The notes beneath the pieces were generated by a model that worked only from the letters and a program-made list of their open reading frames with translations, was not told the origin of the DNA and did not search any database. The position numbers were made by a program, and so were the translations under genes. From a virus, in the IMG/VR virus record IMGVR_UViG_3300045996_000876, positions 1-64,000 of that record: 64,000 nt of DNA. One strand, 5' to 3'. This document shows positions 1 to 64,000 of the stretch, one piece after another (position 1 is the first letter of the stretch; the number at the start of each line of letters is the position of its first letter).

Positions 1-600
1 CGAGACACCCAGAAGGTCAGAGCGTACCGGGCGGAGGAGTTCCAGCGGGAAGTTCCCGCCGTTACCCAACTGGCCGACATCGCGGAGGTCCAGGCCTACC
101 TCAACCAGTTGATCGTCACCTCCTTCTTCCAGTTCCGCTTCCCGCACGTCAAGACTATCGCAGCCACCCGTACACCTGACACCGAGTCCGCCAAGGGAGG
201 GTTTGTACCGGGCGGAGCTTGCTGGGTCAAGCTCCCCAGCTGGGCGATGCTCGATTGGATCGTGCTTCACGAAGTAGCTCACGCCGTCACGCCACCGGAG
301 ACCGGAGGAGGTCACGGGAGGTATTGGGCGCGCGTCTACATCGAGTTGGTGACCTATCGGCTAGGGAAGTTCCGTGGCTTCCAGCTGAAGAGCGCCTTCC
401 AGCGGGCGGGCATCAAGTTCTCCCCCAAGCGACCTCCGGCGGAGATGACCCCGCAGTGCGCTGCCGCCAGACCCAAGACGATACCTGGCCGTCCATCCAA
501 GGTCATGTTCTACCTGGCCAGCCTTGAGCCGGATGGCCCAATGAAAGATCGTATCTTGGCGGCGCACGCGGCGGTAGAGAAGTGGAGGAGTCGAAAATAA
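1..600 (+). CDS. Putative zinc metallohydrolase (TIGR04338-like), 5'-truncated by the window edge
   Basis: The frame is open from base 1, so the true start lies outside the window; 199 codons are visible. An HExxH zinc motif (HEVAH, about 268-282) is followed about ten residues later by GGGHG, which may supply a third ligand, and then by the segment YIELV. The N-terminal start of the visible part (RDTQKVRAYRAE) and the HExxH...YxELV order resemble the TIGR04338 family of small metallohydrolases best known from actinobacteria and their phages. No signal peptide is visible, so it probably acts in the cytoplasm; the substrate is unknown. A TTG at 109 could start a shorter product, but the upstream sequence looks coding. 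Confidence 0.75.
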   Translation, partial: RDTQKVRAYRAEEFQREVPAVTQLADIAEVQAYLNQLIVTSFFQFRFPHVKTIAATRTPDTESAKGGFVPGGACWVKLPSWAMLDWIVLHEVAHAVTPPETGGGHGRYWARVYIELVTYRLGKFRGFQLKSAFQRAGIKFSPKRPPAEMTPQCAAARPKTIPGRPSKVMFYLASLEPDGPMKDRILAAHAAVEKWRSRK

Positions 601-677
601 AGGCTAGGCGCGGGTACCCTCCTCCGGGTATAGTCGGGCCACGACAGTAATTCTTACAGTTTAGTTAGGAGTTCAAA

Positions 678-956
678 ATGCCAGCAAAGACCACAGCGCT
701 TGCGTGGGCTACCGCCACAGGTGGAAGCGTAGGCGAGTGGAGGAGAAAAGGTGACCTGTTCTACGTTGGGAATGAACATGCCGGGTACTTTGCCCTAACG
801 TCTAACCGCGTTCTAACGTTGGGGGTGTACTACGGGCACCCGATAGAGGATGCCAATTTGGTGGTGGCCTACGCGGAGCGGTCACTGGACCCAGTGGCTT
901 ACCTCCTCCGCCTAGTCCCATCAATTGGGTTGGGACTCCCGGCCATGGTGGCGTAA
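678..956 (+). CDS. Hypothetical protein, 92 aa
   Basis: The ATG is preceded by AGGAGTTCAAA, a good ribosome-binding site. The protein has a small Gly/Trp-rich N-terminus and a Leu/Val-rich C-terminus with no motif I recognise. The 77-base leader upstream contains a TATAGT at 629-634 that could be a -10 box, but no good -35 is seen 16-18 bases before it. The next transcription unit starts just downstream at the promoter near 1010, so this gene may be expressed with the gene before it. Confidence 0.6.
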   Translation: MPAKTTALAWATATGGSVGEWRRKGDLFYVGNEHAGYFALTSNRVLTLGVYYGHPIEDANLVVAYAERSLDPVAYLLRLVPSIGLGLPAMVA

Positions 957-1009
957 GCCCCAGGCCCATTGTGGGATAGGCCATGATGGGAATTATCTCC
1001 ACTGGATGG

Positions 1010-1064
1010 TTGCCCAATGGGGTATCTGGTGGTATACTTCTCTCAGTGGTCGGGAGTTCCGACC
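1010..1064 (+). promoter_or_regulatory. Sigma70-like promoter plus leader hairpin (copy 1)
   Basis: TTGCCC (1010-1015), a 17-base spacer and TATACT (1033-1038) form a near-consensus promoter. Just downstream lies the inverted repeat GGTCGG-GAGTT-CCGACC (1048-1064), which would sit at or near the 5' end of the transcript. Closely related units occur near 2352, 3672 and, without the hairpin, 4241. The unit drives the small gene at 1087. Confidence 0.8.
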
Positions 1065-1086
1065 GGAACCGAATGGAGATAGAACG

Positions 1087-2086: not shown

Positions 2087-2114
2087 AGCCCAGCAAGACT
2101 GGCCTTGCTGGGCT
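2087..2114 (+). other. Intergenic hairpin containing CCAGCAAG/CTTGCTGG
   Basis: An 11-base-pair perfect stem, AGCCCAGCAAG (2087-2097) with CTTGCTGGGCT (2104-2114), closes a 6-base loop. It occupies the position that the GCGGGAGC hairpins occupy upstream of the two preceding genes. The two arms are the forward and reverse forms of the octamer that is over-represented across the window. Confidence 0.65.
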
Positions 2115-2758: not shown

Positions 2759-3043
2759 ATGGCTACGAAGAAACAACCCTGTCCCCACTGCGGCAAGAAG
2801 TTCGCTGTCCAAGGCTACGGGCGGCACGTCGTGAAGTGCGCTGAGCTCCACGGGGTCACGCCCGGTTCGACCGTCGCGGAGAAGGCACCGCCCGCCAGCA
2901 AGGGCGCTGCCGTCGCGGCAGCCAGCGGGAAGCCCATCGCCAACTCCCAAGTCATCGAGGGACTGGCCAAGCTCTCCGCCGTCGTGAACCTGAACGATAT
3001 GTCCTGGGACCAGCTGTATGATCTGGGCTCCCGGGTGAAGTGA
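2759..3043 (+). CDS. Small C2HC zinc-finger protein, 94 aa
   Basis: Residues 8-27 hold CPHCGKKF followed by GRHVVKC, a CxxC...HxxxC zinc-finger pattern like those of small nucleic-acid or protein binding fingers. An Ala/Pro/Lys-rich linker follows, and then a helical C-terminus. Good AGGAGATAG RBS. It probably binds DNA, RNA or a host protein; no more specific role can be inferred. Confidence 0.7.
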   Translation: MATKKQPCPHCGKKFAVQGYGRHVVKCAELHGVTPGSTVAEKAPPASKGAAVAAASGKPIANSQVIEGLAKLSAVVNLNDMSWDQLYDLGSRVK

Positions 3044-4299: not shown

Positions 4300-5190
4300 A
4301 TGACCGGTTTTGAAGACATCACCCGCGAGATTCTGAACGCCAACCCCGCTTCGAACGCGATGCACAAGCCCACGGAGTTCGACCCCACCCAGTACGTCGC
4401 GGTGGACTGGTTCGACAACCAAGGCGGAGGGTATCAGCAAGGCTTCGGAGCGGAGGAGCTCAACCACGTGCTAGAGTGCCGGAAGCTCCTCCGCGAGTCG
4501 CCCACTTCAGTCTACAACAAAGGAGACCGGGGCAGCCAGTGCGACCACTGTGGTGCGCACATCCGCTACGTCGGGGTGGTGAAGCACCTTCCGACCGGAA
4601 CCTATATGGCGATGGGCGAGAACTGCCTGGAGCGGCTCAATATCGAGGATAAAGCAGCCTTCCGGCTCAAGTTTATCCGCGACCAGGCCCACAACGAAGC
4701 GGTCCACCAGAAGCGGCTCGCGGCTCAGACAGCCTTCTTCGGCTCGCATCCCGGTCTGGAAGAAGCGCTCAAGACCGATCACCATATCAGCAAAGACCTA
4801 GGCTCAAAGCTTTACCAGTGGGGCAGCCTCTCCGAGCGTCAGGTGGCTCTCGCCTTCAAGCTACAGAAGGATGTCGCGGAGCAGGCTACGCGGATGGCGG
4901 AGCGGGCGCAGCAGGACGCCCAGCTGGATGACGCTCCGGAAGGGAAGCTGCGGGTGGTCGGAACTATCCTGACCATCAAGACCGTAGAGAGCGCGTATGG
5001 CGTCACGACGAAGTGCCTCTTGCTGGTCGAATCGCCCGCGAAGTTCAAGCTGTGGGTGACCCTCCCCACCTCCCTCTCCGGTACGGAGCGCGGCCAGAAG
5101 GTCGCCATGAACGTGACGGTGGAACGGTCGAAGGATGACAGCAAGTTCGCTTACGGCTCTCGCCCGACGAAGGGTGAGGTGATCGCGTGA
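4300..5190 (+). CDS. Zinc-finger and OB-fold-like nucleic-acid-binding protein, 296 aa
   Basis: Residues about 80-110 contain CDHCGAH and, later, GENCLERL, a split Cys/His zinc-binding module (treble-clef-like). The middle is a long charged helix (about 125-210). The last 85 residues (LRVVGTILTIKTVE...GVTTKCLLLVES...FKLWVTLP) read like a single OB-fold barrel. The combination suggests a phage DNA- or RNA-binding protein, perhaps for single strands. First gene after promoter copy 4. Confidence 0.6.
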   Translation: MTGFEDITREILNANPASNAMHKPTEFDPTQYVAVDWFDNQGGGYQQGFGAEELNHVLECRKLLRESPTSVYNKGDRGSQCDHCGAHIRYVGVVKHLPTGTYMAMGENCLERLNIEDKAAFRLKFIRDQAHNEAVHQKRLAAQTAFFGSHPGLEEALKTDHHISKDLGSKLYQWGSLSERQVALAFKLQKDVAEQATRMAERAQQDAQLDDAPEGKLRVVGTILTIKTVESAYGVTTKCLLLVESPAKFKLWVTLPTSLSGTERGQKVAMNVTVERSKDDSKFAYGSRPTKGEVIA

Positions 5191-5261: not shown

Positions 5262-5885
5262 GTGAACGCCAAAATCGAATGCCAAAGCGTGGAGGAGTTG
5301 GACCGCATCCTTGAGATTCTCCGCCCGAAGTTCCCGTGTGGTGGGTGTACCGCCTGCTGTACCGTCGTGGGAGTGGAGGAGCTTGGGAAGCCTTACAACT
5401 GTAAGTGCGAGCACGACAACGGGAGCGGCTGCGCCATCTACGGGAAGCACCCCGGGAGTTGTAAGGAGTTCGCGTGCTTCTGGGCCATGGGTATCTTCGG
5501 AGATATCCCGGAGCTACGCCCAGACCGCTTAGGAGTCTTGCTGGTACCCGCAGCCGTAGTGGAGACGGAAGGGATGTCACTGGACATCTACCCAACCCGG
5601 GAGATAACCCCGCAAGAGCTTGATACCGTTCGGAAGCTCGCCAACTTGGTACTCGCGGAGCTACCGGTATTTGAGTGTATCCGATTGTACCCGCTAGGAG
5701 CGAAGGTTGGCGTGGGCTACCCTCTGCGTGACCCGTACCCTAAAACCTCCGCCACGGGCGGGAACGAGTTTGCCACCATAGATTCTAACCACTTCGTCCG
5801 GTACTGGATTGGCGCGTCACCGCTCCCGCCCGCTCCGTACGACCCGCCATACCGCACCGGGCAGAACCTCGATGTTACCGGATAG
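5262..5885 (+). CDS. YkgJ-like cysteine-cluster protein, 207 aa
   Basis: GTG start after TTAGGAGATAGAC. Residues 26-35 are CGGCTACC, the CxxCxxCC signature of the YkgJ/UPF0153 family, followed by C-x-C and further Cys (CKCEH...GCAIYGKHPGSC...FAC) expected to hold zinc or an iron-sulfur cluster. The family's biochemical role is not settled. It ends the unit that starts at promoter copy 4. Confidence 0.8.
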   Translation: MNAKIECQSVEELDRILEILRPKFPCGGCTACCTVVGVEELGKPYNCKCEHDNGSGCAIYGKHPGSCKEFACFWAMGIFGDIPELRPDRLGVLLVPAAVVETEGMSLDIYPTREITPQELDTVRKLANLVLAELPVFECIRLYPLGAKVGVGYPLRDPYPKTSATGGNEFATIDSNHFVRYWIGASPLPPAPYDPPYRTGQNLDVTG

Positions 5886-7393: not shown

Positions 7394-8175
7394 TTGACCA
7401 ACACCCAAATATCCAAGTTGACCTCGCCACCTTCGTTCACGCGGATGCCTGCGACTTCCTGGTCCAACATACCGCCTACGGCGATACCCCTGCGATCATC
7501 TTCGCAGACCCTCCGTTCAACATCGGAGTAGAGTACGCCACCGCTGACGACGACAAGCCGGATGACCAGTACCTCAAATGGACTGAGACGTGGTTTGGGC
7601 TCGCGGCGGGCTGTCTCGCGGCTGACGGCTCCCTCTGGGTGAACATCCCGGACCGTTGGGCGGCGGAGTTTGTCTTGCTGGGCAAGCGGCTCGGGCTGAA
7701 GTTGGAGAACTGGGCTATTTGGCACCACCGCTTCGGCACTTGGCAACCCAAGCGGTTTATCGTCTCCAAGACGCACGCTCTGTGGTTCAGCAAGGGCAAA
7801 CCCTTCGTTGACCCGACAGCGGCTCTAGTCCGGAGCGATCGCGCGGCGATCTATTCCGATGCCCGGACGGTTGACAACGCGGGCTGGCGTATGGAGCTTG
7901 ACGTTTGGGGCTTCGATCCTTACTGGGGAAGAGTCCAAGGCAACAACCGGGAGCGCCGCCCGCTCCATCCTAACCAACTCCCGGAGCAGTACCTGAAGCG
8001 GATCATTTCCGTATGCTCCGAAGAAGGCCACACCGTCCTGGACCCGTTCTGCGGCTCGGGTACGACAGCGACCGTCGCCAATGCTCTCCGCCGCTACTGC
8101 GTTACCTCCGATGTGTCGGAGGTCTATTTGAAATCCGCCGCAGAGCGATGTGCTCTCGGGATGATCGCGAGATAG
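7390..8175 (+). CDS. DNA methyltransferase (beta-class amino-MTase), 261 aa
   Basis: Catalytic motif DPPF at residues 40-43 comes before the SAM-binding motif DPFCGSGTT at 218-226, the order of beta-class N6-adenine or N4-cytosine methyltransferases (N6_N4_Mtase fold). It also has a CxxGH-free, compact middle with many Trp residues. No restriction endonuclease lies beside it, so it is probably an orphan enzyme that protects phage DNA or imitates host methylation. The target sequence cannot be read from the gene. Confidence 0.9.
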   Translation: MIDQHPNIQVDLATFVHADACDFLVQHTAYGDTPAIIFADPPFNIGVEYATADDDKPDDQYLKWTETWFGLAAGCLAADGSLWVNIPDRWAAEFVLLGKRLGLKLENWAIWHHRFGTWQPKRFIVSKTHALWFSKGKPFVDPTAALVRSDRAAIYSDARTVDNAGWRMELDVWGFDPYWGRVQGNNRERRPLHPNQLPEQYLKRIISVCSEEGHTVLDPFCGSGTTATVANALRRYCVTSDVSEVYLKSAAERCALGMIAR

Positions 8176-8623: not shown

Positions 8624-9475
8624 ATGCTTACGTACCAAGACCTCTGCCGCCCGACCGACTACAAGGGTCAGCCCGTTCGCTACGCCCAGAAGAAGGAGGA
8701 TGGGCTACGCTTGCTGGTCTCCATCCTCCCGGGTATCCACGATGAGAAGATCATCAGCGCGGTCACCCGCGAAGGGAAGACAGACCACGCGGTGAACCTT
8801 CTGAAGGTCGATTCGATCTGGACCAAGCTCGCAACGCTTCCCGTCTATACGCAGTTGGACTGCGAGATTCACGTGCCCAACGTTCAGGCGACCAACGTCA
8901 TCACCCACCTTCTCTCCGGCTCGAATTCGCTCAAGCTCTCTCCGTTCGCAATGCCCTTCTTCTATGGGCAAGACCTGCGCGGCTGGGAGCTTCCCGACGT
9001 CATTTCGAAGATGAGAGACTTGGGGCTGGACCCGGTACCGGTGACGCTCCTTACTGGGAAGCTTGAAGAAGCGCTCTGGCTCCAGCGGGCGAGGGATATG
9101 CGGGCGGAAGGCTTCGTGCTCAAGCAGCACCACTACTCCGGCTGGTTCAAGCTCAAGCCGGTTAAGACGGCTGACTGCGTTGTGATGGGTTATACCCTTT
9201 CCGACTCTACAACCTACTTCGGAGACCTAAAAGCGGTCCAAGTAGGCGTGATTGATACGACCAGCAAGAAGCTGGTAGAGGTCGCCAGCTTAGGGACTGG
9301 CTTCTCTGCGGAGCAGAGACGGGCTTACGGACAGAAGCCTGGCGACCTCTTGGGCAAAGTGTGTGAGGTTCAATACGATTCGCTTGCTGGGCAAGGCAAG
9401 CTCAAGTTCCCGCGTTTCGTCGGGTGGCGGGTGGATAAGCTCGCGGAAGAGTGTACCAGTAAGCAGCTGGTGTAA
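8624..9475 (+). CDS. ATP-dependent DNA ligase, 283 aa
   Basis: Nucleotidyltransferase motifs appear in order: motif I KEDGLR with adenylated Lys24, LDCEI (motif III), AEGFVLK (IV) and WFKLKP (V). A C-terminal OB-fold part ends in LKFPRFVGWRVDK. About 280 residues is the size of compact phage ligases. It joins nicks in phage DNA during replication and repair. RBS AGGAGATAGATAG. Confidence 0.92.
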   Translation: MLTYQDLCRPTDYKGQPVRYAQKKEDGLRLLVSILPGIHDEKIISAVTREGKTDHAVNLLKVDSIWTKLATLPVYTQLDCEIHVPNVQATNVITHLLSGSNSLKLSPFAMPFFYGQDLRGWELPDVISKMRDLGLDPVPVTLLTGKLEEALWLQRARDMRAEGFVLKQHHYSGWFKLKPVKTADCVVMGYTLSDSTTYFGDLKAVQVGVIDTTSKKLVEVASLGTGFSAEQRRAYGQKPGDLLGKVCEVQYDSLAGQGKLKFPRFVGWRVDKLAEECTSKQLV

Positions 9476-9817: not shown

Positions 9818-10177
9818 GTGACTGAGCCAATCTTCGTTCCAACCGCGTACGATCCCGATGCCCCGCCGCTCATTGATCCCTCTGATCCTAACTATACGAT
9901 GGTCAACTTCGTATATGTCTGTACGTCGTGTCAGACCGCGTTTGTCAAGGGAACCTACCCGCGAGACATTGGCTACTCTTACTTCGCGCGGCTGGTTCGC
10001 GGAGAACGGTTCATTGAGCTCCCGGGCGGTGAGGGAGTCGCCCAGCAAGAGCCGCACGCCTGCCCTGACCAGATCGGACATAAGGGTCCGGACCTCCTTG
10101 GAATCGCGGTTCTGGCCCAACTGAAGTACGCTGATCAACCACTCGTCATACGGAAGGCACCCAATGGGAACACGTGA
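9818..10177 (+). CDS. Hypothetical protein with Cys pair, 119 aa
   Basis: GTG start after GAGGAGACTCCC. CTSC near residue 35 and HxCPDQ near 81 could form a zinc ribbon. The N-terminus is Pro/Asp-rich. The 3' end overlaps the next gene by 14 bases, so it is probably the first gene of the hypermodification operon; its role in that pathway is unknown. Confidence 0.6.
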   Translation: MTEPIFVPTAYDPDAPPLIDPSDPNYTMVNFVYVCTSCQTAFVKGTYPRDIGYSYFARLVRGERFIELPGGEGVAQQEPHACPDQIGHKGPDLLGIAVLAQLKYADQPLVIRKAPNGNT

Positions 10178-11186
10178 AGAGTTTGAGCACGGCTCGTCCG
10201 ACGTTGAAGACTTCTTCTATTGGATCAACGAGCGTCACTCCATCTACCTGAAGCGGGCTGCTGGGCTCCCGAAGCCTTGGACCAACGACGAAGTTCTCCG
10301 GGACTACAAGTTCACCAATGCCTTCCGCGAGCTTGACCGTGGAACGGTCGCTCTCCGGGCGATGGAGAAGGATGTCGTGAAGCTGTGGCGGTTCGGCCAT
10401 CAGCCGTTCGATGCCGCCGCGATCATATTCAATACCTTCTGGTACCGCTTCTTCAACCTGGACATCCACGCGTACAGGCTGGGGATGTGCGACTACGAAA
10501 CGCTCCAGACGTATATCTTCAAGAAGGTAGATGCCGACCAACAGGTGTTTACGGGTGCTCATATCGTCCGGGGTATCGGCTCCTCTCTCTCCGGAGCGGT
10601 AGGGAGCTTCAAGCACTACGATACGCTCCACGACCGTATCAAACGCGGGATGGGCGTGCTGAAGGCTTTTGACTACCTCGCCTTGGCCCATGAGATATGG
10701 TATGACCGTTACGAACTCGCGGCCAAGTTCGCGGAGTGTAAAACTCTCCAGCAAGCCTTCGACATTATCCAAGGGTACTTCTTGCTGGGCGACTTCACCA
10801 GCTACGAACTCGTGTGCGACCTCCGCTGGACTCTTCTCTCGCACTGTACAGATATCCTGACCTGGGGCAACGTCGGCAACGGCGCAGTACGCGGGCTGAA
10901 GCGGCTCGGGCTGAAGCCAACTTCGGAGTCGATGGTCTATCTGTGGATGGAAGCTCCGGAGTATCTGAGCCCGGATGTCCGGTCTCATCACATCGCTAGC
11001 TACAGTGACGCCTTCGTTCCGACCAACCCAGTTCATATGAAAGACTACCTGCGGGACTGGGTTGGGCTCACTACGTTCCCGCCGTTTGAAATCCGCGAAA
11101 TTGAACATTCTCTGTGCGAGTTCGACAAATACATTCGGGCCAAGTCGGGACAGGGCAGACCGCGTTCCAAGTATGACGGGAGATAG
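10164..11186 (+). CDS. aGPT-Pplase clade 1-like protein (thymine hypermodification), 340 aa
   Basis: The N-terminal block (WINERHSIYLKR...PWTNDEVLRDYKFTN followed by AFRELDRGT, residues 20-61) matches the family named alpha-glutamyl/putrescinyl thymine pyrophosphorylase clade 1, found in phages with modified thymine. Members are helical DNA-base-modifying proteins or glycosylase-fold relatives. Its neighbours (kinase, amino acid:DNA transferase, PLP and radical SAM enzymes) support a role in modifying hydroxymethyluracil in DNA. The start is the ATG inside the end of the preceding gene, and no alternative fits better. The exact reaction of clade 1 is not known to me. Confidence 0.8.
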   Translation: MGTREEFEHGSSDVEDFFYWINERHSIYLKRAAGLPKPWTNDEVLRDYKFTNAFRELDRGTVALRAMEKDVVKLWRFGHQPFDAAAIIFNTFWYRFFNLDIHAYRLGMCDYETLQTYIFKKVDADQQVFTGAHIVRGIGSSLSGAVGSFKHYDTLHDRIKRGMGVLKAFDYLALAHEIWYDRYELAAKFAECKTLQQAFDIIQGYFLLGDFTSYELVCDLRWTLLSHCTDILTWGNVGNGAVRGLKRLGLKPTSESMVYLWMEAPEYLSPDVRSHHIASYSDAFVPTNPVHMKDYLRDWVGLTTFPPFEIREIEHSLCEFDKYIRAKSGQGRPRSKYDGR

Positions 11187-12027: not shown

Positions 12028-13041
12028 ATGGCGACCTTGAGGACAACGATGACTTTGAATTTTGAGCTCACTTCGAACGAACTGATGAACGACTTCTTGG
12101 ACTACTCCAAGTACAGCATCTGGTCGAAAGACGTTGACCCGGTGTACGACGTTCTCAAGGCCATCCACCGCTTGCTGGGCTACGGAGAAGGAGACCGCGA
12201 CAACCGGGTGAAGCATACGTTCTGGTATCTCTCCTGGTACAACCTGATGTCGGCGCAGGAGGCATGGAACTACGTGACGGAGACCGGTGACGAGCTTCCG
12301 GATTACAACCTGTGTAAGCTCCCGACCGGGATAGAGCGCCGCGGATTCCGAGACGGCTACCAGATGATGAAGCATATGGAGTCGCTCCAAAAGATCGCGG
12401 CTGACTGGAACAACGCTCATAACAGGGACGGCCAAGGCTGGTTTGACGACTGGATCGCGGCAGGCTTCACGAACAACGCCAAGGTCAACTGGGGTATCGC
12501 CTATGAACGGCTCCAGACGGTCTACGGGAACGGACGCTGGGCAGCATATAAGGGCTGCGAACTTCTCCAGAAGGTCTGCGGGCTAAACTTGGAACCTCCC
12601 GATATGGGACACAAGGGAAGCTCCGGACCGCGCAAGGGTCTGGCGATGCTCTTTCGGGATTGTCCCGCTCACGGCGATCAGAGCGCGCAAGCCATCGAGC
12701 TACTTGACCGGATGAGTGACGACTTGCTGGATCATATGCGCAAGTGGTATAGCGACAACCCCGTTGTCCAAGACCTAGGCGTGGTGGAAACTTGTCTCTG
12801 CGACTTCCACTCGATGGCTCACGGCGGGTATTACGTCGGGCACGACATCGACCTGATGCAGGAAGGTGTCAGCAAGTCAAAAGCTCCGCAGGAGGTGAAA
12901 GACCTTCTGTGGAACGCGCGAGCGGTAGCGCTGCCGCACCACTACCTTGGCGAGCTTGGCGGCTGGAACGGCGTGGACAAAGATCGCAAGCGAGCTTACC
13001 GTGATCAGAACGTGATCATGATTCGCGGAGAACTGGAATGA
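12028..13041 (+). CDS. Amino acid:DNA transferase-like protein (aGPT-Pplase clade 2), 337 aa
   Basis: The N-terminal region (DPVYDVLKAIHRLLG...WYLSWYNLMSAQEAW, then ERRGFRD) matches the amino acid:DNA transferase (AADT/ADDT) family, which replaces the pyrophosphate on activated 5-hmdU with an amino acid. A large helical domain and a C-terminal segment with CLCDFHSMAHGGYYVGHDID may hold metal ligands. ATG 12028 is used; ATG 12049, with GAGG upstream, is an equally good start. The stop overlaps the next small gene (ATGA). Confidence 0.82.
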   Translation: MATLRTTMTLNFELTSNELMNDFLDYSKYSIWSKDVDPVYDVLKAIHRLLGYGEGDRDNRVKHTFWYLSWYNLMSAQEAWNYVTETGDELPDYNLCKLPTGIERRGFRDGYQMMKHMESLQKIAADWNNAHNRDGQGWFDDWIAAGFTNNAKVNWGIAYERLQTVYGNGRWAAYKGCELLQKVCGLNLEPPDMGHKGSSGPRKGLAMLFRDCPAHGDQSAQAIELLDRMSDDLLDHMRKWYSDNPVVQDLGVVETCLCDFHSMAHGGYYVGHDIDLMQEGVSKSKAPQEVKDLLWNARAVALPHHYLGELGGWNGVDKDRKRAYRDQNVIMIRGELE

Positions 13042-14125: not shown

Positions 14126-14311
14126 ATGAGACATTTCCTCCTTCGTATCGCGGTACGCTTCCGGCTCGTGCGGCTCTCCGACTGGTTGATCAACACGTGC
14201 GACCGGGAGGGTGGCGAGTGTTCCAAGTGCGGAGCGACTTGCTGCCCCTATGGCGACCCGCTTCACTTCCACCACGATGGTTGTCCCTCTTGCTGGCAGG
14301 ATGAGCTATGA
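14126..14311 (+). CDS. Small Cys/His-rich zinc-binding protein, 61 aa
   Basis: RBS GGAGACTCT. A basic helical N-terminus is followed by CSKCGATCC, a HFHHDG stretch and CPSC, enough ligands for one or two zinc ions. The 107-base gap before it holds no supported gene; a GTG frame at 14050 runs through it but overlaps this better-supported gene. The stop overlaps the next start (ATGA). Confidence 0.6.
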   Translation: MRHFLLRIAVRFRLVRLSDWLINTCDREGGECSKCGATCCPYGDPLHFHHDGCPSCWQDEL

Positions 14312-25409: not shown

Positions 25410-25546
25410 TGGCCCTATCAAGGGAGCAGGCAATGCGATCACCTTGGCTTGTTCTCATAGAGGAGCCATCAGGGCTGACGCGATCCCTCATCGAGCTAGC
25501 CTTGCTGGTCCACCCACGGCACCCCTTATTCTCTTGGAGACATACA

Positions 25547-49827: not shown

Positions 49828-49828
49828 C

Positions 49829-53230: not shown

Positions 53231-53711
53231 AATCGTGTTCACGGCGGAGCAGATCGCCATGAGAGTGAGGGAGCTAGCGGACCGGATGAAGGGAGAGCGG
53301 CCCATAGCGCTCGTCCCCATTCTGACCGGGGCAATCACCTTCACGGCGGACCTGCTCCGCCATCTCCCAGCAAGCACGGTAGTATCGCCGATGCTTATGG
53401 ACCCTTACCACCGTGGGATGGTCCTGGCGGAACCGGACCTGTTGTTGCTACTGAACCGGGACGTATGGGTGGTGGATAACTCCATGGCCAGCGGGGTGAC
53501 CCTGTATGGAGCGGTCAAGGCTATCCGACGGCACCGTACAATCGTGGACCTGAAGACCGTGGTGTTGTACCGCTTGCTGGAGGGTCACCCCATGCCGATA
53601 GAACCGACCTTGTGCGGCTTCTTCCACCGCCCCACCGGGCGTCTCATCGGGTACGGTCAAGACCAGCAAGGAACTGGCCGTGGTCTGAGGGATATCGTGG
53701 GTTATAACTAG
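53211..53711 (+). CDS. Phosphoribosyltransferase-like protein (hypoxanthine PRTase-like), 166 aa
   Basis: ALVPILTGAITFTADLLRHLP and the C-terminal FHRPTGRLIGYGQDQ match the hypoxanthine-guanine phosphoribosyltransferase layout. The PRPP loop is replaced by VVDNSMASGVTL; the usual E/D-D-x-x-D-T-G is altered to DNSMASG, so PRPP binding may be changed. It may be a nucleotide salvage protein or a repurposed fold. Last gene of the late module; ATG 53211 or GTG 53208. Confidence 0.72.
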   Translation: MPESSTKIVFTAEQIAMRVRELADRMKGERPIALVPILTGAITFTADLLRHLPASTVVSPMLMDPYHRGMVLAEPDLLLLLNRDVWVVDNSMASGVTLYGAVKAIRRHRTIVDLKTVVLYRLLEGHPMPIEPTLCGFFHRPTGRLIGYGQDQQGTGRGLRDIVGYN

Positions 53712-54106: not shown

Positions 54107-56206
54107 ATGACAGTCGCTCAGACCGACATACCCGCCCATGCCACGCGCGTCTTGGAACCGCTCTCCACCGCTACCGGTACCCTGATGGAGATGTGGGAGC
54201 CATTTCCGAATGAGTGGCTGTACGTCTCCTTAGATAAGGAGGCAAAGAACTTCGTGGTCCACGCCCGGACCTTAAAGAGGTTCCACGGTAGCTTCGCTTG
54301 GAATCAGAGCGAGCAGAACCTAGTCAAGGTCAACGGCGTTGACTACGTAGAGGAGGCGGCTGGACCCAGCTTCAAGCTGGCTCAGACCTACTTCAAGAAG
54401 TTCCCGGAGAAGAAGGAACTTGACTTTGGTAAATGGCTCCTGTACGGGACCGACTTCAACGCGCTCGTCCTGACCCACACGTGGCCGAAGGCTAAGCTGG
54501 TGGTGTCTGATGAGGCGAATTTCCTCCTGTCCTACCTCACCAACCGGTTCTTGTCGCAGACCCGTTGTGCGGTCCGCTCCGCTGAATACCATATCAACAA
54601 GAAGCTTCCGGAGGTACCCGCAGGCTTCCCAGTCCACCCGGAGTTCCCGCCGCTTCACCATCACTGGACGCCCATCGTCAACTCGCTCTTCAATAAGAGC
54701 TATGGCCTGTTCATGGAGCAGGGCACCGGAAAGACCTCGACAGTCATCGCCCGTATCTGTTATGAAGCCTTGCTGAAACGACAGGGCCTGACGCCAGGTC
54801 TCCCGGGTATGCCCCGGACGATGTACCGCGTACTGATCATCTGTCCCAACCAGGTCCGCTTCAACTGGGAACAGGAATTCTTACAGTTTGCTACGGTAGC
54901 GGGAAAGACTTCGGTGTTGCGTGGTGATGAGGTCTCCCGTACCCGGAAGCTAAACGAAGGGATCAGAGACGAGGATGATTGCTACTTCGGAGCGGTGATG
55001 CTAGGTCACGACAGCGTAGGGAATACGCTGGAAGCGATCCGCCGCGTACCTTGGGACCTTGTAGTCTGGGATGAGAGCCATTACGTAAAGAACCACCGCA
55101 CAGAACGGTTCTCAGCCAACCGGGAGTTCTTATCGGTTGGGCACGTCCGTCAACGCATGGTCCTGAGCGGTACGCCCATCGCCAATACCCTGATGGACCT
55201 CTGGACCCAGCTAGAGCTACTGGGCGAGGGTCTGAGCGGCTTTGCTACCTTCAAACACTTCCGCGCCTTCCACGGCTCGTTTGTACGTCAACGGGACGGA
55301 ACCGGTACCGCGATTGAGAAGCTCATCGGGCTGAAGAATATCCCGCTCATACAGGAGCGGCTGTCCCGCCTTACCTTCATGATTACGAAGGAGCAGGCGG
55401 GAATGAACCTCCCGGAGAAGATATACGATACCATCGAAGTGGAGATGACTCCGCAGCAGGCTACCTGGTACAAACAAGTTAAGAATCAGCTGGCGATTGA
55501 GCTGGAAGATATCCTGAACGGGGATGCTCCGAAGCGGATGACCGCTGATCACGTCCTGACCAAGCTCCTCCGGCTCGCTCATATCACGTCGGGGTTTGTA
55601 ACCTGGGATGCTATCATCGACACCGACGGCGTGGTTGTCTCTCCGAAGCGGGAGGAGACGATACCCGGACCCAACCCGAAGATTGATGAGCTGGTCGCCT
55701 GTATCAAAGCGGACTTTGAAGATGACCCGCTCGGAAAGAAGATTGTCTGGGCCAGTTGGAAGCACGACCTGCGGGAGATTGCCGCCCGCTTCCGTGAAGA
55801 GGGATTCAACTTCGTGGAGTACCACGGGAGCGTACCGGACGCGCAGCGACCCGCCGTCATCGCCAAGTATAACCTAGACCCGAAGTGTAACATCATCCTG
55901 GGCAACCCTCAGACTCTCGGAACCGGTACGAACTTGCTGGGATACGACCCAGCCAACCCGGACTCGCTTCCGACCTATACCGATCACGAGTTCTTTTTCA
56001 GTCAGGGCTGGCAGCCCGTTCTGCGCGGTCAGGCGGAGGATCGTGCCCACCGTAAGGGTACACGGACAATCCTCCGGATTACTGACTTTGTCGTACCCGG
56101 TACCGTTGATGTAGAGATTCGCGCCCGAGTTCGGGGCAAGCTCGATGACGCTTCTATGATCCAAGATGTACGCGACATCCTCCGGAACGTCTTGGAAAAC
56201 CTCTAA
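54107..56206 (+). CDS. SNF2-family DEAD/DEAH-type helicase, 699 aa
   Basis: Motif I EQGTGKT (204-210), II DESH (322-325), III SGTP (about 355) and a VI-like GQAEDRAHRKGT near the C-terminus. This is the two-RecA-domain SNF2 family in phages. An N-terminal 190 residues of unknown fold may bind DNA. It likely remodels protein-DNA complexes during replication or repair. Start ATG after TAGCTG. Confidence 0.92.
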   Translation: MTVAQTDIPAHATRVLEPLSTATGTLMEMWEPFPNEWLYVSLDKEAKNFVVHARTLKRFHGSFAWNQSEQNLVKVNGVDYVEEAAGPSFKLAQTYFKKFPEKKELDFGKWLLYGTDFNALVLTHTWPKAKLVVSDEANFLLSYLTNRFLSQTRCAVRSAEYHINKKLPEVPAGFPVHPEFPPLHHHWTPIVNSLFNKSYGLFMEQGTGKTSTVIARICYEALLKRQGLTPGLPGMPRTMYRVLIICPNQVRFNWEQEFLQFATVAGKTSVLRGDEVSRTRKLNEGIRDEDDCYFGAVMLGHDSVGNTLEAIRRVPWDLVVWDESHYVKNHRTERFSANREFLSVGHVRQRMVLSGTPIANTLMDLWTQLELLGEGLSGFATFKHFRAFHGSFVRQRDGTGTAIEKLIGLKNIPLIQERLSRLTFMITKEQAGMNLPEKIYDTIEVEMTPQQATWYKQVKNQLAIELEDILNGDAPKRMTADHVLTKLLRLAHITSGFVTWDAIIDTDGVVVSPKREETIPGPNPKIDELVACIKADFEDDPLGKKIVWASWKHDLREIAARFREEGFNFVEYHGSVPDAQRPAVIAKYNLDPKCNIILGNPQTLGTGTNLLGYDPANPDSLPTYTDHEFFFSQGWQPVLRGQAEDRAHRKGTRTILRITDFVVPGTVDVEIRARVRGKLDDASMIQDVRDILRNVLENL

Positions 56207-56589: not shown

Positions 56590-57154
56590 CAAGCCCCATC
56601 CCGACGTTGTGACACTTCACGAGATGCTGAACAAGCTCCGCGATCTTCATATGGAGATGAACCAGAAGCTTATGGAGGTCCACGAAGCCATCCCCAAGAA
56701 CCGCTACGCAGCGGACCAAGACCTGGTTGACCTGGGCTTCATCTCCCGGGCGTCGAAAGACTTGCTGGAAGACTGGCGCAAAGTCGCTCACAAGGCGGAG
56801 GAGCGGGCGGGATTTCAGTTGGGGTGGCGGGTGACTCAAGCTTCTCTCCAGAATCCCGAAGTGGACACGACCGTCCACGGCACCCTCGCCTACGCCAACA
56901 CCGACATTGAGTATATCCCGCAGCTGCCCGATAGGTCCAGCAAGGAGTATATCGACCTGATGGTGGATCTGGGCGTGCCCCGTGAGATCGCGGAGCGTGA
57001 GGGCAAGTTCATCAAGCTGGACTTCAAGAGGATCCAGACCTACCTCTGCGGCTTGGCGGAGGATGGAAAGCCTATTCCGCCCTGGGTCAAGGCGATGTCC
57101 CCAAACTACACGTCTACATTTGTCAAGAAGCGTACGTCATCCAAGGTGGAATGA
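56570..57154 (+). CDS. Hypothetical protein, 194 aa
   Basis: RBS TAGGCC, overlapping the previous gene. Charged N-terminal helix (MLNKLRDLHMEMNQKLMEV), then an alpha/beta region with WRVTQASLQNPEVDTTVHGTLAYA. Function unknown; it lies in the replication block between the helicase and a candidate ssDNA-binding protein. Confidence 0.6.
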   Translation: MATRILNKPHPDVVTLHEMLNKLRDLHMEMNQKLMEVHEAIPKNRYAADQDLVDLGFISRASKDLLEDWRKVAHKAEERAGFQLGWRVTQASLQNPEVDTTVHGTLAYANTDIEYIPQLPDRSSKEYIDLMVDLGVPREIAEREGKFIKLDFKRIQTYLCGLAEDGKPIPPWVKAMSPNYTSTFVKKRTSSKVE

Positions 57155-57188: not shown

Positions 57189-58187
57189 ATGGCTAAGGTG
57201 AATCCCCCAAAAGGCGTGACGACTGCTCCCGCTCCCGTAGCGGAAGCCACGCCGCCCGTTTCCTCTCCGGAAGTCGCTCCGGAAGCGGCTCCGCCCGTTC
57301 CCGCTACCCCGGAAGCTGCCGCCGCGCAAAGCCTGGTGGTCGCGGCGCAATCGGCGGAGTCTCAGGTGTCCGGAGGTCTGGCCGCGCTCGCGGAAGCTGC
57401 GGACGCGGACAACTCGATGGAGGGAATGCGGCAGTTCATGATCGTCCCTCGCCTGAAGATCGTTCAGGGCCAGTCGGACGGCGAACTCAAGAAGCAGTTC
57501 GGAGAAGGCGCGGTCATCATCAACCCCGGTGCGGCTCTTGTCGCGGAGAAGGAGGCACCATTCCACTTCGTGCCCCTGTTCTACTTCAGCGAGTACGCGT
57601 TGTGGTCGGACCGTCGCGACAAGGAGTCCAAGGCGATCATTGAGCGTTCGTTCGATGCCAACAGCATCATCGCCAAGAACGCGGCGGACAAGGCCAAGCG
57701 GGAAGTCCTGTACCCCGGGCATGAGAAGAAGCCTGACAAGGAGAAGTGGTACAAGCGGTATGTCCACCACTTCTGCTTCCCGGGTATCATCTACGGCGAC
57801 AATGGGCTTGCTGGCACCCCGGTCGTTCTCTCCTTCGAACGCGGCGAATGGACCAACGGGCGTCAGTTCGTTTCCTCGATCCAAATGAAGAAGTTCCAGC
57901 TGCCCAACGGTACCCGCAAGACCCTCCCGCTGTGGGCGCAGGTCTGGCAACTCCAATCGGCTCCCCGCCTGGGTGAGCTCGGAAATTGGTGGGGATATGA
58001 ACCCCGCTTCGTCGGGCGGATTGCGGACGCGGAGGTCAACCCGTTCCGTGCGCAGCACCTGGAGTTCGCGCGGCTCCACGAAGAGAAGCTGCTTCAGGTC
58101 GATCACGGGAACGAAGGTCAGGGCGGCACTGGCGGGGAGACGGAAGCGGAGGTTGCGGCTCGCGTTGAGCAAGCCGGAGAGATGTAA
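57189..58187 (+). CDS. Abundant-type protein with Pro/Ala-rich N-terminus, possibly ssDNA-binding, 332 aa
   Basis: Residues 1-75 are a Pro/Ala-rich flexible tail, then a compact domain (FMIVPRLKIVQGQSDGELKK, AVIINPGAALVAEKEAPFHF, WGYEPRFVGRIADAEV) whose layout recalls phage proteins of the replication block, sometimes described as ssDNA-binding. A strong terminator follows, so it is a good candidate for high expression. RBS TTTGGAGAGCCAT. Family call is uncertain. Confidence 0.6.
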   Translation: MAKVNPPKGVTTAPAPVAEATPPVSSPEVAPEAAPPVPATPEAAAAQSLVVAAQSAESQVSGGLAALAEAADADNSMEGMRQFMIVPRLKIVQGQSDGELKKQFGEGAVIINPGAALVAEKEAPFHFVPLFYFSEYALWSDRRDKESKAIIERSFDANSIIAKNAADKAKREVLYPGHEKKPDKEKWYKRYVHHFCFPGIIYGDNGLAGTPVVLSFERGEWTNGRQFVSSIQMKKFQLPNGTRKTLPLWAQVWQLQSAPRLGELGNWWGYEPRFVGRIADAEVNPFRAQHLEFARLHEEKLLQVDHGNEGQGGTGGETEAEVAARVEQAGEM

Positions 58188-58261: not shown

Positions 58262-61156
58262 ATGATGATGAATAAAAAGCCTAACCAATCTTCGCTTCCG
58301 ATTGAGAACATCAGCGCTTTAGCGGAGCTAGAGCGGCTTGGCGTCACGGTGGAAATGCGGGCCAACAACGAAGTCCAGATGATCTGCCCCGTCCACGAAG
58401 ATACCAACCCTAGTTTGATGCTCGATACGCAGAAGAATCTTTTCAAGTGCCAGTCGTGTAAAGCTCGCGGCGATATCGTTTCGCTGCTCGCCCACTTCGC
58501 AAAAGTTGACCGGGCGGTCATGCTACAGGACTTGGGCACCCGATACGATCTTGGACTTCACAATACGTTAGACCCGCGAGTTGCGGAGCGGTTCCATGAG
58601 GGTATCTGGTCTGCCGGTCCGCTGCTTCAAGCGTTGTACAGTCGCGGTGTGACGGATTCGATGATACGCAAGGCGCGGCTCGGATTCCATAACGGTCGTA
58701 TCATGATTCCGGTTTATGACGAGCAACGCCGCATCGTCAATATCCGCCGGTATCTTCCGGGCGCTCCCGGTCCGCAGAAGATGTACAACACAAAAGGGTA
58801 CGGGACTCCTCCGAACATCTACCAGATCGAACAGCTGGTCAACTTCAAGAAGAGTTGGATGTGCGGCGGAGAGATGAAGGCGCTAGTCGCGGGAACCTTG
58901 CTGACTCCGAACGATGTCGGTGCGTGGGCTGTCTGCGCAGGTGAAGGTTCCTGGGAAGCTTCGTTTGGGAAGCACGTCAAGGGAAAGACTATCTACATCT
59001 GCTTCGATATCGACCACGCGGGGATGAACGCGAGTCGGAGCGTGGCGAAGCAGCTGGCCCATATCGCGGAAGCAGTCTACATCGTCCGACTTCCGCTGGA
59101 CCGGGAGAAGTTCCCGAAGGGAGACATCAACGATTACGTAGCGTCAACCGGCGCTACCGCTCAAGACCTCCTCCGCTTGATGGAAGAAGCGGAGCTATAC
59201 GTACCGGAGAAGTTCGCGGAGGAGGAGGAGCCCAAAGACGCCCAGCTGATAAAGCTCGCTGAGGCTTCCCGTTCAAACTATATCGGCAAGCGGATTGCGG
59301 TTGACGCGATGGTTCAGGCGATGGACACCACGCCGTATCTCCTCCCGCAAAACGTAGATGTTCAGTGTACCCGCGATCAACCCAATTGCGAATGGTGTCC
59401 TGTAAAGGCGAGTGACCCCGATGAGAAAACAGGCTTGGTTCACTGTACCGTTCGCGGTACTGCTATTGGTATCCTCGACATTGTCCAGTCGCCCAAGGGT
59501 AAGCAACGCGAAGCTCTCCGCGAAGCTCTCAACATCCCGAAGTGTAACGCGTGCGAGTTCTTTGTGCGTTCTCATACGAACGCCTATGACATCCGCCTTA
59601 TGCCACAGCTGGAGACGACGGGCAGCAACTCCGACTACGTGGTCCAGCCTGCTTTCCTGATCGGCGATTACAAGATTGAGACCAACACGCCGTACGTCTT
59701 CAAGGGAAGGGTCCACCCACACCCCAAGAACCAGCAAGCGATCTTGCTGTTCAACGAGATTGGGGAGTCACGGAACTCACTGGACGCGTTCGCACCGACT
59801 CCGGAGCAGTTGGAAGAGATGGATGTATTCAAGTCCACGGAGTATACGGTAGAGAGCATCACGGAGAAGCTGGACGCGATCTACACCGACATGGAAGCGA
59901 ACGTCACGCGAATCTATAAGCGCCGCGAGCTTCACTTGGTTCTGGACCTGATGTACCATTCGATCTTATACCTCACCTTTGACGAGCGGAAGGAACGCGG
60001 CTGGGTCAACGTCGTAATCGTAGGCGACTCGTCTCAGGGTAAGTCGGAAGCTTCACAGGCGATGATGAAGCACTACCGGCTTGGCGAGCGAATCGACTGT
60101 AAGAATGCGACAGTAGCGGGCGTGCTAGGTGGCTGCGAGCAGATCGGAAATCACTGGTTCATCTCGTGGGGAACTATCCCCATCCACGATAGGCGGGCGG
60201 TTCTCCTTGAGGAGGTCAAGGGAGCGCCGCTGGAGGTCATCAGTAAGCTTACGGATATGCGGTCATCGGGCATCGCGGAGATTCAGAAGATTGAGAAGCG
60301 ACGTGCCCACGCCCGTACCCGGCTCGCGTTCATCTCCAACGCTCGCGGTACGAAGTCCGTTGATGACCGGAACTTCGGTTGCGAGGTGATTGAGGAGCTA
60401 GCGGGAAGCAAGGAGGATGTCCGCCGCTTTGATGTAGGTATCCTACTCTCCTCCTCTCAGGTCGATCCTTCCACCATTAACCAGTTGATCAAAGACCGTC
60501 CAAGATGCCACCACATCTACACTAGCGACCTGTGCAACCGGCTCGTGCTATGGGCGTGGACCCGGACCGCTGATCAGGTTATCTTCGATCCAGAGGCGAT
60601 CCAGGCGTGTCTTACGGAAGCGAACCGGCTCGCGGGAAAGTTCTCTGAGGAGCTTCCGCTGATCGACAAGGGTACCACCAAGTTCAAGCTTGCCCGCCTT
60701 GCGGCAGGACTTGCTGGGCGTCTGTTCAGTACGGTCGATGGAGACCGGACGAAGCTGCGGGTGACCGCCGCTCATGTCCACTTCATCGCTCAGACGATAG
60801 ACGGCTGGTACAGCGACAAGGTGTTCGGCTATCTCGCGTACTCTCAGGCGCAGGAGTACAAGACCAAGATAAAAGACCCGCATACGATCAGAGCCCAGAT
60901 CATGAACACTCGCTTCCCGTCCGACCTAGTGGATGGGCTTCTGAATCGAAACGAAATTCAGCTAGGCGACTTCCAGGACTGGTGTCAGCTGGATCGCGAC
61001 GGCGCTCAATCGCTCCTCTCCTTCCTGGTTCGCAAACACGCGTTGAACCGGGAGAAAAGATATTACGTCAAGTCCGGTCAGTTCATCGAGTTCCTGAAGA
61101 AGCTTCAAACGGAAGATATCCGCGAGTCACAACCCTTACCTGGTTCGGAGTTCTAA
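58262..61156 (+). CDS. Primase fused to an MCM-like AAA+ helicase domain, 964 aa
   Basis: A CHC2-type zinc finger (CPVHEDTNPSLML...LFKCQSC, 42-66), a TOPRIM-like region (CGGEMKAL near 201, then FDIDHAGM near 243) and an AAA+ module with GDSSQGKSEA at 588-597, LLEE as Walker B and an arginine-rich RRAHARTRLAFISN. The order primase then MCM-like helicase makes one protein for priming and unwinding. Three ATGs in a row start it; the RBS is weak. Confidence 0.85.
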   Translation: MMMNKKPNQSSLPIENISALAELERLGVTVEMRANNEVQMICPVHEDTNPSLMLDTQKNLFKCQSCKARGDIVSLLAHFAKVDRAVMLQDLGTRYDLGLHNTLDPRVAERFHEGIWSAGPLLQALYSRGVTDSMIRKARLGFHNGRIMIPVYDEQRRIVNIRRYLPGAPGPQKMYNTKGYGTPPNIYQIEQLVNFKKSWMCGGEMKALVAGTLLTPNDVGAWAVCAGEGSWEASFGKHVKGKTIYICFDIDHAGMNASRSVAKQLAHIAEAVYIVRLPLDREKFPKGDINDYVASTGATAQDLLRLMEEAELYVPEKFAEEEEPKDAQLIKLAEASRSNYIGKRIAVDAMVQAMDTTPYLLPQNVDVQCTRDQPNCEWCPVKASDPDEKTGLVHCTVRGTAIGILDIVQSPKGKQREALREALNIPKCNACEFFVRSHTNAYDIRLMPQLETTGSNSDYVVQPAFLIGDYKIETNTPYVFKGRVHPHPKNQQAILLFNEIGESRNSLDAFAPTPEQLEEMDVFKSTEYTVESITEKLDAIYTDMEANVTRIYKRRELHLVLDLMYHSILYLTFDERKERGWVNVVIVGDSSQGKSEASQAMMKHYRLGERIDCKNATVAGVLGGCEQIGNHWFISWGTIPIHDRRAVLLEEVKGAPLEVISKLTDMRSSGIAEIQKIEKRRAHARTRLAFISNARGTKSVDDRNFGCEVIEELAGSKEDVRRFDVGILLSSSQVDPSTINQLIKDRPRCHHIYTSDLCNRLVLWAWTRTADQVIFDPEAIQACLTEANRLAGKFSEELPLIDKGTTKFKLARLAAGLAGRLFSTVDGDRTKLRVTAAHVHFIAQTIDGWYSDKVFGYLAYSQAQEYKTKIKDPHTIRAQIMNTRFPSDLVDGLLNRNEIQLGDFQDWCQLDRDGAQSLLSFLVRKHALNREKRYYVKSGQFIEFLKKLQTEDIRESQPLPGSEF

Positions 61157-61911: not shown

Positions 61912-62942
61912 TCCCTGTCTTTGAATCGGTCGATGAGCTCTGGCTCCACGCCGCTAACACCGTCATCGCCTACGGAGAAAACACCGGCTCCCGCGATGGA
62001 GAAAGCCGTGAGGTGCTCGGCTACTGCGGACGGCTCCTTGACCCGCGTTGTAACTTCCTGTTCAACCCGGTCCGCAAGATGTCGCCCAGCTACGCAGCCG
62101 TTGAGACGATGTGGTATCTCTCCGGAACGGACGACACGACGTTACTCCAGCAATACGCTCCGCAGTACAAGCGGTTCACGGAGGATGGTATCCACGCCTT
62201 TGGAGCGTACGGATACCGCTGGGCGGCTGACCTACCGTTCCGGGTTGCGTTCGCAATGGCCTTCGCTCCGGACTTAGTGAACCTGGACCGTCCATGGCCC
62301 AGCGGGAAGTCTATCGGACCGCGAAGCCAGCTGGAAGTCTTGATGCTCCTCCTAAAGGAGAAGCCTGAGACCCGCCAAGCGGTACTTGCTCAGTGGAACG
62401 GTGGAGACCTGGTTTGCGCCGTGGAAGGGAACAAGCGAGACCTGCCCTGTACGCTGAACCTGAGCTTCATCGTTCGCGGCGGAAAGCTCAATATGATCGC
62501 GACGATGCGCAGTAACGATCTGTGGCTCGGAACGCCCAACGACGTTTTCTGCTTCACGATGATACAGCAGGTCGTGGCGAATAACCTTGGGCTGGAGCTA
62601 GGCTGGTACCAACACAACGTTACGTCGCTCCACTACTATCTCCGCAATGAGGAGAAGCTCAAGCAGGCGGCATCCGTCGGTGCGTTCGGTATCGAGCAGC
62701 TACTGACGACCTGTAACGGCTCGCGGCTGAACGACTTCCTGGAGGATATGCTCACCCAGGAGCGTCACAACCGTAATCACGAGATTGCCGGACCAGAGTG
62801 CTTTGGTATCCAAGACAATACTCTTCCGGGCTTGCTGATTCTCATGGCCGCTACCCGGTGGGCAAAGAATCGTGAAGACCTCCTGAAGCGTTTTGATTCG
62901 AAGGTTCTGCGGAAGTTCATTGAGGAGTTCCACCCGTGTTGA
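61908..62942 (+). CDS. ThyA-family pyrimidine hydroxymethylase/methylase-like protein, 344 aa
   Basis: DLPCTLNLSFIV (Cys181, the nucleophile), RSND (201-204), LGTPND and HNVTSLHYY mark the thymidylate synthase fold. Where typical ThyA has PFN (the Asn that reads dUMP), this has P-N-D with Asp at the third position, a feature of dCMP-type hydroxymethylases. It probably makes 5-hydroxymethyl-dUMP or -dCMP. ATGA overlap with the MazG gene. Confidence 0.82.
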   Translation: MIPVFESVDELWLHAANTVIAYGENTGSRDGESREVLGYCGRLLDPRCNFLFNPVRKMSPSYAAVETMWYLSGTDDTTLLQQYAPQYKRFTEDGIHAFGAYGYRWAADLPFRVAFAMAFAPDLVNLDRPWPSGKSIGPRSQLEVLMLLLKEKPETRQAVLAQWNGGDLVCAVEGNKRDLPCTLNLSFIVRGGKLNMIATMRSNDLWLGTPNDVFCFTMIQQVVANNLGLELGWYQHNVTSLHYYLRNEEKLKQAASVGAFGIEQLLTTCNGSRLNDFLEDMLTQERHNRNHEIAGPECFGIQDNTLPGLLILMAATRWAKNREDLLKRFDSKVLRKFIEEFHPC

Positions 62943-63514
62943 TCATCGAAGGTTCCGACAATCTTGGGAAGACAACGGCGTGTAAGCGGCTGGTTGAGAT
63001 CGTAGCGCATGAGCGATGTTTCGCTCCCGCCCGCTATGTCCATATGTCCCGCCCAAACTCCTCCTTCAACTTCTTCACGCACTACCGCGACATGATCAGC
63101 CGGTACGCGGTTCAGGACCGCTTCCACCTTGGCGCTCTCGTCTGGCACGATAACGTCATGTCTAAGACGCGGCTCCGCCTGATCGAGTCCTGGTTGGCTG
63201 AGGTGGGCTCCGTCGTCATCGTATTGATTGCGAGCGATGAGAAGTGGTACGAAGATCACCTGGAGAAGCAGCCCAAGGAGGAGATGTTCAGCCGTGGGCG
63301 TATCCGGGCGGGCAACCGGGAGTTCGCTGAGCTAATCGCAACGGACTACGCGCGTGCGGACTTCGTTCACGACGTATCCAAAGACGGATTCTTGACGGAC
63401 CGCCATCTCAATACGTATTTGGATGAGTGGTACGGTCGTTTATTCCAAGTTGAAAGGGCGGAAAAGTATGATCCACTTATTGGCGTGCCGAACACTCGCG
63501 GCGGCAATGGTTGA
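62936..63514 (+). CDS. dNMP kinase-like P-loop protein, 192 aa
   Basis: P-loop EGSDNLGKTT (5-14), then the thymidylate-kinase-like layout with FHLGALVWHDN and a C-terminal LID-like region (MFSRGRIRAGN). GTG start overlapping the hydroxymethylase stop. It would turn the modified monophosphate into a diphosphate, supplying the polymerase. Confidence 0.78.
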   Translation: MLIIEGSDNLGKTTACKRLVEIVAHERCFAPARYVHMSRPNSSFNFFTHYRDMISRYAVQDRFHLGALVWHDNVMSKTRLRLIESWLAEVGSVVIVLIASDEKWYEDHLEKQPKEEMFSRGRIRAGNREFAELIATDYARADFVHDVSKDGFLTDRHLNTYLDEWYGRLFQVERAEKYDPLIGVPNTRGGNG

Positions 63515-63971
63515 TGAGATTGACCAGTGCGAGGTCTGGGCCAAGGAGCGACAGACGTGCCTGCGTAAGGCAGTTGGTGCCTCCATCGTCAGCCCGAACC
63601 TTGATGGCTCGTTTACGCGGATGATCCGGACCCACAACGGACCTTCCGCGAACGGACACCAATGCTCGAACATCGTAGGTGGGTGCGGCTGCTCCCACTC
63701 CGAACCGCGAGCGATCTTTGAGATGATGAGAGGCGGCTGGCTCGCTCGCGGCCACGTTCGGAAGCTGATCCTGCTCTGTACCTACTCTCCCTGTACGAAC
63801 TGCGCGAACATCATCAACGACTCCGCCATAATCAACGGAGTCGTCTACCGACACCTCACCCAGCACGATACTCTCGGTGTAGACTTGCTGGTCAACAACG
63901 GGCTTGACGTCGTCACCACGGACGAGCTCATGAACGGAAGCAAAGATGATCTTATTGGACAATGGCGTTAG
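63468..63971 (+). CDS. dCMP deaminase-like protein, 167 aa
   Basis: HSE (77-79) and PCTNC (108-112) form the zinc and catalytic motif (HxE...PCxxC) of cytidine/dCMP deaminases. CSNIVGGCGCSHSEPRA precedes it. It converts dCMP (or a hydroxymethyl version) to the uracil form. The ATG at 63468 has an AAAGGGCGG upstream; ATG 63507 is an alternative. Confidence 0.85.
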   Translation: MIHLLACRTLAAAMVDEIDQCEVWAKERQTCLRKAVGASIVSPNLDGSFTRMIRTHNGPSANGHQCSNIVGGCGCSHSEPRAIFEMMRGGWLARGHVRKLILLCTYSPCTNCANIINDSAIINGVVYRHLTQHDTLGVDLLVNNGLDVVTTDELMNGSKDDLIGQWR

Positions 63972-63972
63972 G

Positions 63973-64000
63973 ATGGTTGAGACGGTCGAGGAGCTTCCGC
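63973..64000 (+). CDS. Start of a gene cut by the window edge
   Basis: ATG one base after the deaminase stop (TAGGATG), open for nine codons (MVETVEELP) to the end of the window. No product can be inferred; the close spacing suggests co-transcription with the deaminase. Confidence 0.35.

Follow-up and report, generated by a model that had tools for sequence, protein, structure and literature searches.

What maintains a single octamer at about one copy per kilobase throughout a phage genome? The question is raised by the IMG/VR virus record IMGVR_UViG_3300045996_000876 (68,868 bp), of which bases 1-64000 (the whole 64,000-nucleotide stretch analyzed, hereafter the window) had been described preliminarily as carrying about 45 copies of the octamer CTTGCTGG on the + strand and about 16 on the - strand. 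A recount of exact matches gives 44 copies of CTTGCTGG and 18 of its complement CCAGCAAG in the window, and the seven start positions quoted in the preliminary description (2104 to 12171) are all exact. The signal is real and strong, and it is probably a new Chi-type motif seen via its phage, with a one-base variant in a sister phage. Each line below is one exact match to CTTGCTGG in the window.

218..225, + strand, CTTGCTGG
2090..2097, - strand, CTTGCTGG, left arm of intergenic hairpin
2104..2111, + strand, CTTGCTGG, right arm of intergenic hairpin
2895..2902, - strand, CTTGCTGG
5019..5026, + strand, CTTGCTGG
5537..5544, + strand, CTTGCTGG
7674..7681, + strand, CTTGCTGG
8710..8717, + strand, CTTGCTGG
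9261..9268, - strand, CTTGCTGG
9383..9390, + strand, CTTGCTGG
10042..10049, - strand, CTTGCTGG
10748..10755, - strand, CTTGCTGG, inverted pair with 10781
10781..10788, + strand, CTTGCTGG
12171..12178, + strand, CTTGCTGG
12723..12730, + strand, CTTGCTGG
14289..14296, + strand, CTTGCTGG
16114..16121, + strand, CTTGCTGG
16610..16617, - strand, CTTGCTGG, inverted pair with 16652
16652..16659, + strand, CTTGCTGG
18474..18481, + strand, CTTGCTGG
18653..18660, - strand, CTTGCTGG
20541..20548, + strand, CTTGCTGG
21341..21348, - strand, CTTGCTGG
21957..21964, + strand, CTTGCTGG
22767..22774, + strand, CTTGCTGG
23527..23534, + strand, CTTGCTGG
23742..23749, - strand, CTTGCTGG
24666..24673, + strand, CTTGCTGG
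25501..25508, + strand, CTTGCTGG
26747..26754, + strand, CTTGCTGG
27011..27018, + strand, CTTGCTGG
28031..28038, + strand, CTTGCTGG
29351..29358, + strand, CTTGCTGG
30391..30398, + strand, CTTGCTGG
30968..30975, + strand, CTTGCTGG
31171..31178, - strand, CTTGCTGG
34556..34563, + strand, CTTGCTGG
36603..36610, - strand, CTTGCTGG, inverted pair with 36621
36621..36628, + strand, CTTGCTGG
38255..38262, + strand, CTTGCTGG
41890..41897, + strand, CTTGCTGG
42750..42757, + strand, CTTGCTGG
44538..44545, + strand, CTTGCTGG
45792..45799, - strand, CTTGCTGG
45919..45926, + strand, CTTGCTGG
46818..46825, + strand, CTTGCTGG
48539..48546, + strand, CTTGCTGG
49357..49364, + strand, CTTGCTGG
50308..50315, - strand, CTTGCTGG
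51073..51080, + strand, CTTGCTGG
52047..52054, - strand, CTTGCTGG, inverted pair with 52070
52070..52077, + strand, CTTGCTGG
53367..53374, - strand, CTTGCTGG
53573..53580, + strand, CTTGCTGG
53663..53670, - strand, CTTGCTGG
55933..55940, + strand, CTTGCTGG
56761..56768, + strand, CTTGCTGG
56937..56944, - strand, CTTGCTGG
57807..57814, + strand, CTTGCTGG
59731..59738, - strand, CTTGCTGG
60710..60717, + strand, CTTGCTGG
63884..63891, + strand, CTTGCTGG

Over the complete record, CTTGCTGG occurs 49 times on the + strand and 20 times on the - strand, compared with 1/1 copies of a reversed control word. The sites at 218 and at record position 68,859 have an identical 25-bp upstream flank, as would fit an end repeat of about 0.23 kb; with this repeat counted once, the unique copies number about 48 on the + strand and 20 on the - strand (0.99 per kb, in agreement with the claimed density of about one per kb). 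CTTGCTGG outnumbers every other octamer in the genome and tops them all, by a wide margin, for enrichment over its 24 one-mismatch neighbours (on both strands, 68 copies vs a mean of 3.7 and a maximum of 14 for words that occur 0-14 times each; ratio 18.3). The claimed over-representation also withstands comparison with Markov expectations, which for both strands are 2.2 at order 1, 4.7 at order 2, 5.4 at order 3, and 11.1 at order 4; orders above 4 absorb CTTGCTGG itself. The word is asymmetric (non-palindromic). The information content of the bases flanking its sites does not exceed about 0.2 bit and they show no strong consensus, so that the unit is exactly eight bases.

Two of the sites, at 2090 (-) and 2104 (+), are the arms of the intergenic hairpin at 2087-2114, in which the octamer had indeed been reported; the two octamers face each other in a terminator-like structure (DNA fold -15.5 kcal/mol, z -4.0). 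Four further facing pairs are found at 10748/10781, 16610/16652, 36603/36621, and 52047/52070.

The genome is nearly one-directional (84 of 86 genes lie on the + strand, as called by a home-made rather than a standard caller), and the count might in principle merely reflect codon-pair or amino-acid usage (Leu-Leu, Leu-Ala-Gly), as 29 of the 42 genic + sites are in the TTG-CTG frame. The chance of this is close to nil, in keeping with the initial judgement that codon usage was insufficient: 200 synonymous codon shuffles yield on average only 1.8 (+) and 2.8 (-) copies within genes (maxima 7 and 8), vs the 42 and 18 observed, and the one-mismatch words sit near their shuffle expectation (32 vs 31.6 on the + strand; 53 vs 38.6 on the - strand). 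At positions where the encoded protein permits the word, CTTGCTGG is present in 42 of 71 cases on the + strand (59%) and in 18 of 44 on the - strand (41%), compared with 32/1157 (2.8%) and 53/794 (6.7%) for the 24 near-miss words. Moreover, the use of several codon frames is confirmed, with 29 + sites in nnC-TTG-CTG-G, 11 in CTT-GCT-GGn, 2 in nCT-TGC-TGG, and 6 in intergenic DNA, so that all three frames are represented, as are both strands and the DNA outside genes (1.26 per kb in intergenic vs 0.96 per kb in genic DNA), and the sister phage employs a different word (see below). Enrichment on both strands of a one-directional genome indicates action at the DNA level; an RNA-level element as the sole cause was rejected because the - orientation is also enriched.

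The bias toward the + strand amounts to 2.4:1 rather than the claimed 3:1 or so, and some of it stems from what the genes can encode: once coding capacity is taken into account, the difference is 59% (+) vs 41% (-) (Fisher p = 0.08). The + sites are spaced more evenly than under random placement, and also when compared with subsets drawn at random from the permitted positions (p = 5e-5). Plus-plus pairs within 400 bp number only 2 vs 10.3 expected (reached in 0/2000 simulations), whereas plus-minus pairs at this distance show no avoidance (14 vs 12.2 expected). Because + sites avoid + sites but not - sites, the signal is read by strand.

An orientation-blind site would not give avoidance solely between same-strand sites, which argues against a reading in which phage DNA mimics self for some other host factor, such as a DNA-organising protein, a segregation translocase, a modification enzyme, or the uptake machinery. 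Such a factor would fit the enrichment on both strands, the similar intergenic and genic densities, and the five facing pairs able to form hairpins. Close facing pairs show no notable excess (6 within 50 bp vs 4.2 expected given permitted positions). DNA uptake sequences of Haemophilus and Neisseria are likewise short exact words in many copies and also occur as facing pairs in hairpins. However, in uptake sequences the consensus is usually longer and includes a flanking preference, whereas the octamer here has no flanking consensus, has strand-specific spacing, and is carried by a phage. The early suggestion of an uptake sequence was not sustained, as there is no extended consensus and the genomes sampled did not reveal a host carrying the word, and we regard a host factor of any of these kinds as improbable.

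One clear sister phage, IMGVR_UViG_3300037467_001267 (TerL 57%, primase/helicase 52%, and PolA 48% identical), was found by alignment-based protein scans of IMG/VR, where single-protein searches for close relatives had yielded none. Its word is CTCGCTGG, which differs from CTTGCTGG by one base and occurs 37 times on the + strand and 19 times on the - strand (0.78 per kb; 8.0 times its near-miss words; order-1 Markov expectation 4.6; strand split p = 0.18 after coding-capacity correction). The sister has only 0 + / 5 - copies of CTTGCTGG, and the phage studied here has CTCGCTGG 1 + / 4 - in genes. No comparable enrichment was seen in other relatives, several of them with TerL 56-57% identical, and no CTTGCTGG-type enrichment in two Manatee phages; an IMG/VR scan for facing octamer pairs returned mostly chance matches, with 0 of the 47 records counted whole near this density. 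In a second sister strain, compared over 18.5 kb at 97.3% identity, 10 CTCGCTGG sites are common to both strains, 2 are only in the first, and 3 are only in the second, each of the latter being one base off in the first strain. Sites therefore come and go between sister strains, and their number matters more than their position.

A change of word between sister phages could also arise if the reader were encoded by the phage, one candidate being the following protein.

58262..61156, + strand, primase/helicase-like protein (PHROG primase, CHC2 zinc finger; 52% identical in the sister)

The octamer would then be a polar start or loading site for this or another replication or packaging protein, spaced at about one per Okazaki-fragment length, and the word would have shifted by one base as the protein diverged in the sister; the protein and its 50-70 sites would be co-evolving by one letter around an evenly spaced 8-base signal. 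The enrichment is confined to this phage and its nearest relative among those examined and is absent in more distant ones, no host carrying the word was found among the sampled genomes, an IMG/VR scan for the primase/helicase common to both phages found no other full-length relative, and orientation-specific spacing of about one per kb suits lagging-strand initiation. However, known primases recognise about three bases rather than eight, the favoured strand stays the same along the genome, unlike in bidirectional replication, - sites also occupy 41% of permitted positions, and coliphage P1 has the same footprint with a host-read signal. A phage-encoded reader is thus considered unlikely, if less so than the other host factors above.

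When P1 was analyzed with the same scripts as a positive control, its Chi word GCTGGTGG ranked first (31 + / 19 -; 0.53 per kb; 9.8 times near-miss words; order-1 Markov expectation 2.4). In both phages, an exact asymmetric octamer is the genome's most enriched and is scattered in both orientations with one favoured; they differ in the word itself and in spacing, as + sites are evenly spaced in this phage but not in P1. Coliphages without recombinases or RecBCD inhibitors over-represent Chi, and the excess is strongest in P1- and T5-like phages, whose packaging depends on concatemers (PMC3784561). In the present phage, none of the proteins scanned matched a recombinase or RecBCD-inhibitor family. 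The predicted proteobacterial Chi motifs (GCTGGTGG, GCTGGCGG, GCTGCTGG, GGTGGTGG, and GCTGGAGG) are octamers of related letters, and GCTGCTGG has its last six letters, TGCTGG, in common with CTTGCTGG, but neither CTTGCTGG nor CTCGCTGG is on this list (PMC8022716). A literature search for the octamer word gave nothing relevant.

On balance, CTTGCTGG is rather likely to be a Chi-like signal for a host double-strand-end enzyme of the RecBCD or AddAB type, and CTTGCTGG and CTCGCTGG are probably the Chi signals of each phage's host. A host Chi site is thus the best supported of the roles suggested at the outset, although not an established one, because the word is an exact, asymmetric, strand-read octamer without flanking consensus, its sites turn over, and its footprint is P1-like.

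Several observations weigh against this assignment. The octamer has roughly double the number of sites per kb that Chi has in P1 (0.99 vs 0.53). Spacing in the sister phage has the same direction but is not significant (p = 0.19 at 400 bp and 0.066 at 700 bp), and conservation of sites between the sister strains is, in small numbers, no better than that of their surroundings (10/12 vs 84%). Many small phage proteins are without a family match, so that a recombinase or inhibitor could be missed. No host was found by counting the word in 398 Pseudomonadota and 289 Alphaproteobacteria genomes: none of them stood out, 12 spot-checked high-count genomes showed no exact enrichment of the octamer, and in none of those sampled does the word look like a Chi candidate. 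Even in the densest sampled genome (0.29/kb), the count is entirely what an order-4 Markov model predicts (117 observed vs 117.6 expected in 400 kb). However, this null result is weak as counter-evidence, since even in E. coli the excess of Chi is no more than 2- to 3-fold and since the host may lie outside the sampled groups. With a ratio of Chi to near-miss words of only about 2.8 in E. coli DNA (50-kb piece) vs 18.3 for CTTGCTGG in the phage, phage DNA is the better place to look for a Chi motif.

For a Chi-like signal, we infer a reader and a protective function as follows. A free phage DNA end would arise from injection, rolling-circle replication, or packaging, and the host RecBCD/AddAB-type enzyme would load on this end and degrade inward. 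At a correctly oriented octamer, the enzyme would stop degrading and load RecA, and the spared phage DNA could then recombine into concatemers. Selection would maintain about one readable site per kb, limiting the loss, with more sites kept on the strand coding for genes. If polarity is as in E. coli, the favoured orientation would protect DNA entered from the right map end. The sister phage may carry CTCGCTGG because its host's enzyme is slightly different in specificity.

The encoded terminase, portal, head-morphogenesis, tape-measure, and tail proteins place the phage, as judged from sequence, with siphophages whose relationship to the Yua-like group and the Manatee Spring phages is distant. 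A thymidine-hypermodification gene set is present at 10164-15967 and 60982-62942; it includes 5-hmdU DNA kinase domains (PF18723, PF18748) and an amino acid:DNA transferase (PF18724), as well as a PLP enzyme, a radical-SAM protein, a thymidylate-synthase-like protein, and a nucleotide pyrophosphohydrolase. This predicted set makes hypermodified thymine likely in the phage DNA, perhaps within the octamer as well. The sister phage has relatives of several of the genes. A sulfotransferase-domain protein (PF13469) is encoded at 20314-21102, and a homologue of Pam3 phage gp34 (PF23977) at 57189-58187. A second frequent word, AAGGAGATAG / CTATCTCCTT, is scattered over the window and is probably the phage ribosome-binding context; the sister phage has ATAGGAGATAG-like words. 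In another phage, IMGVR_UViG_3300046454_000233, the exact word TTGGCATAACTG is repeated 8/7 on the two strands in 21.7 kb and is a candidate dispersed binding site, and in IMGVR_UViG_3300021197_001349, TGACCAAAT is repeated 7/6 in 15.8 kb.

Chi motifs are not known for most bacteria, including most Proteobacteria. A phage saturated with one octamer reveals such a motif without its host, the ratio to near-miss words being 18 in the phage vs about 2.8 in E. coli. If the Chi assignment is true, the two sister phages show a Chi specificity moving by one base, and scanning phage genomes for exact-word saturation would give Chi specificities across uncultured bacteria. If the reader is instead a phage protein, the octamer would be a new kind of polar genome signal.

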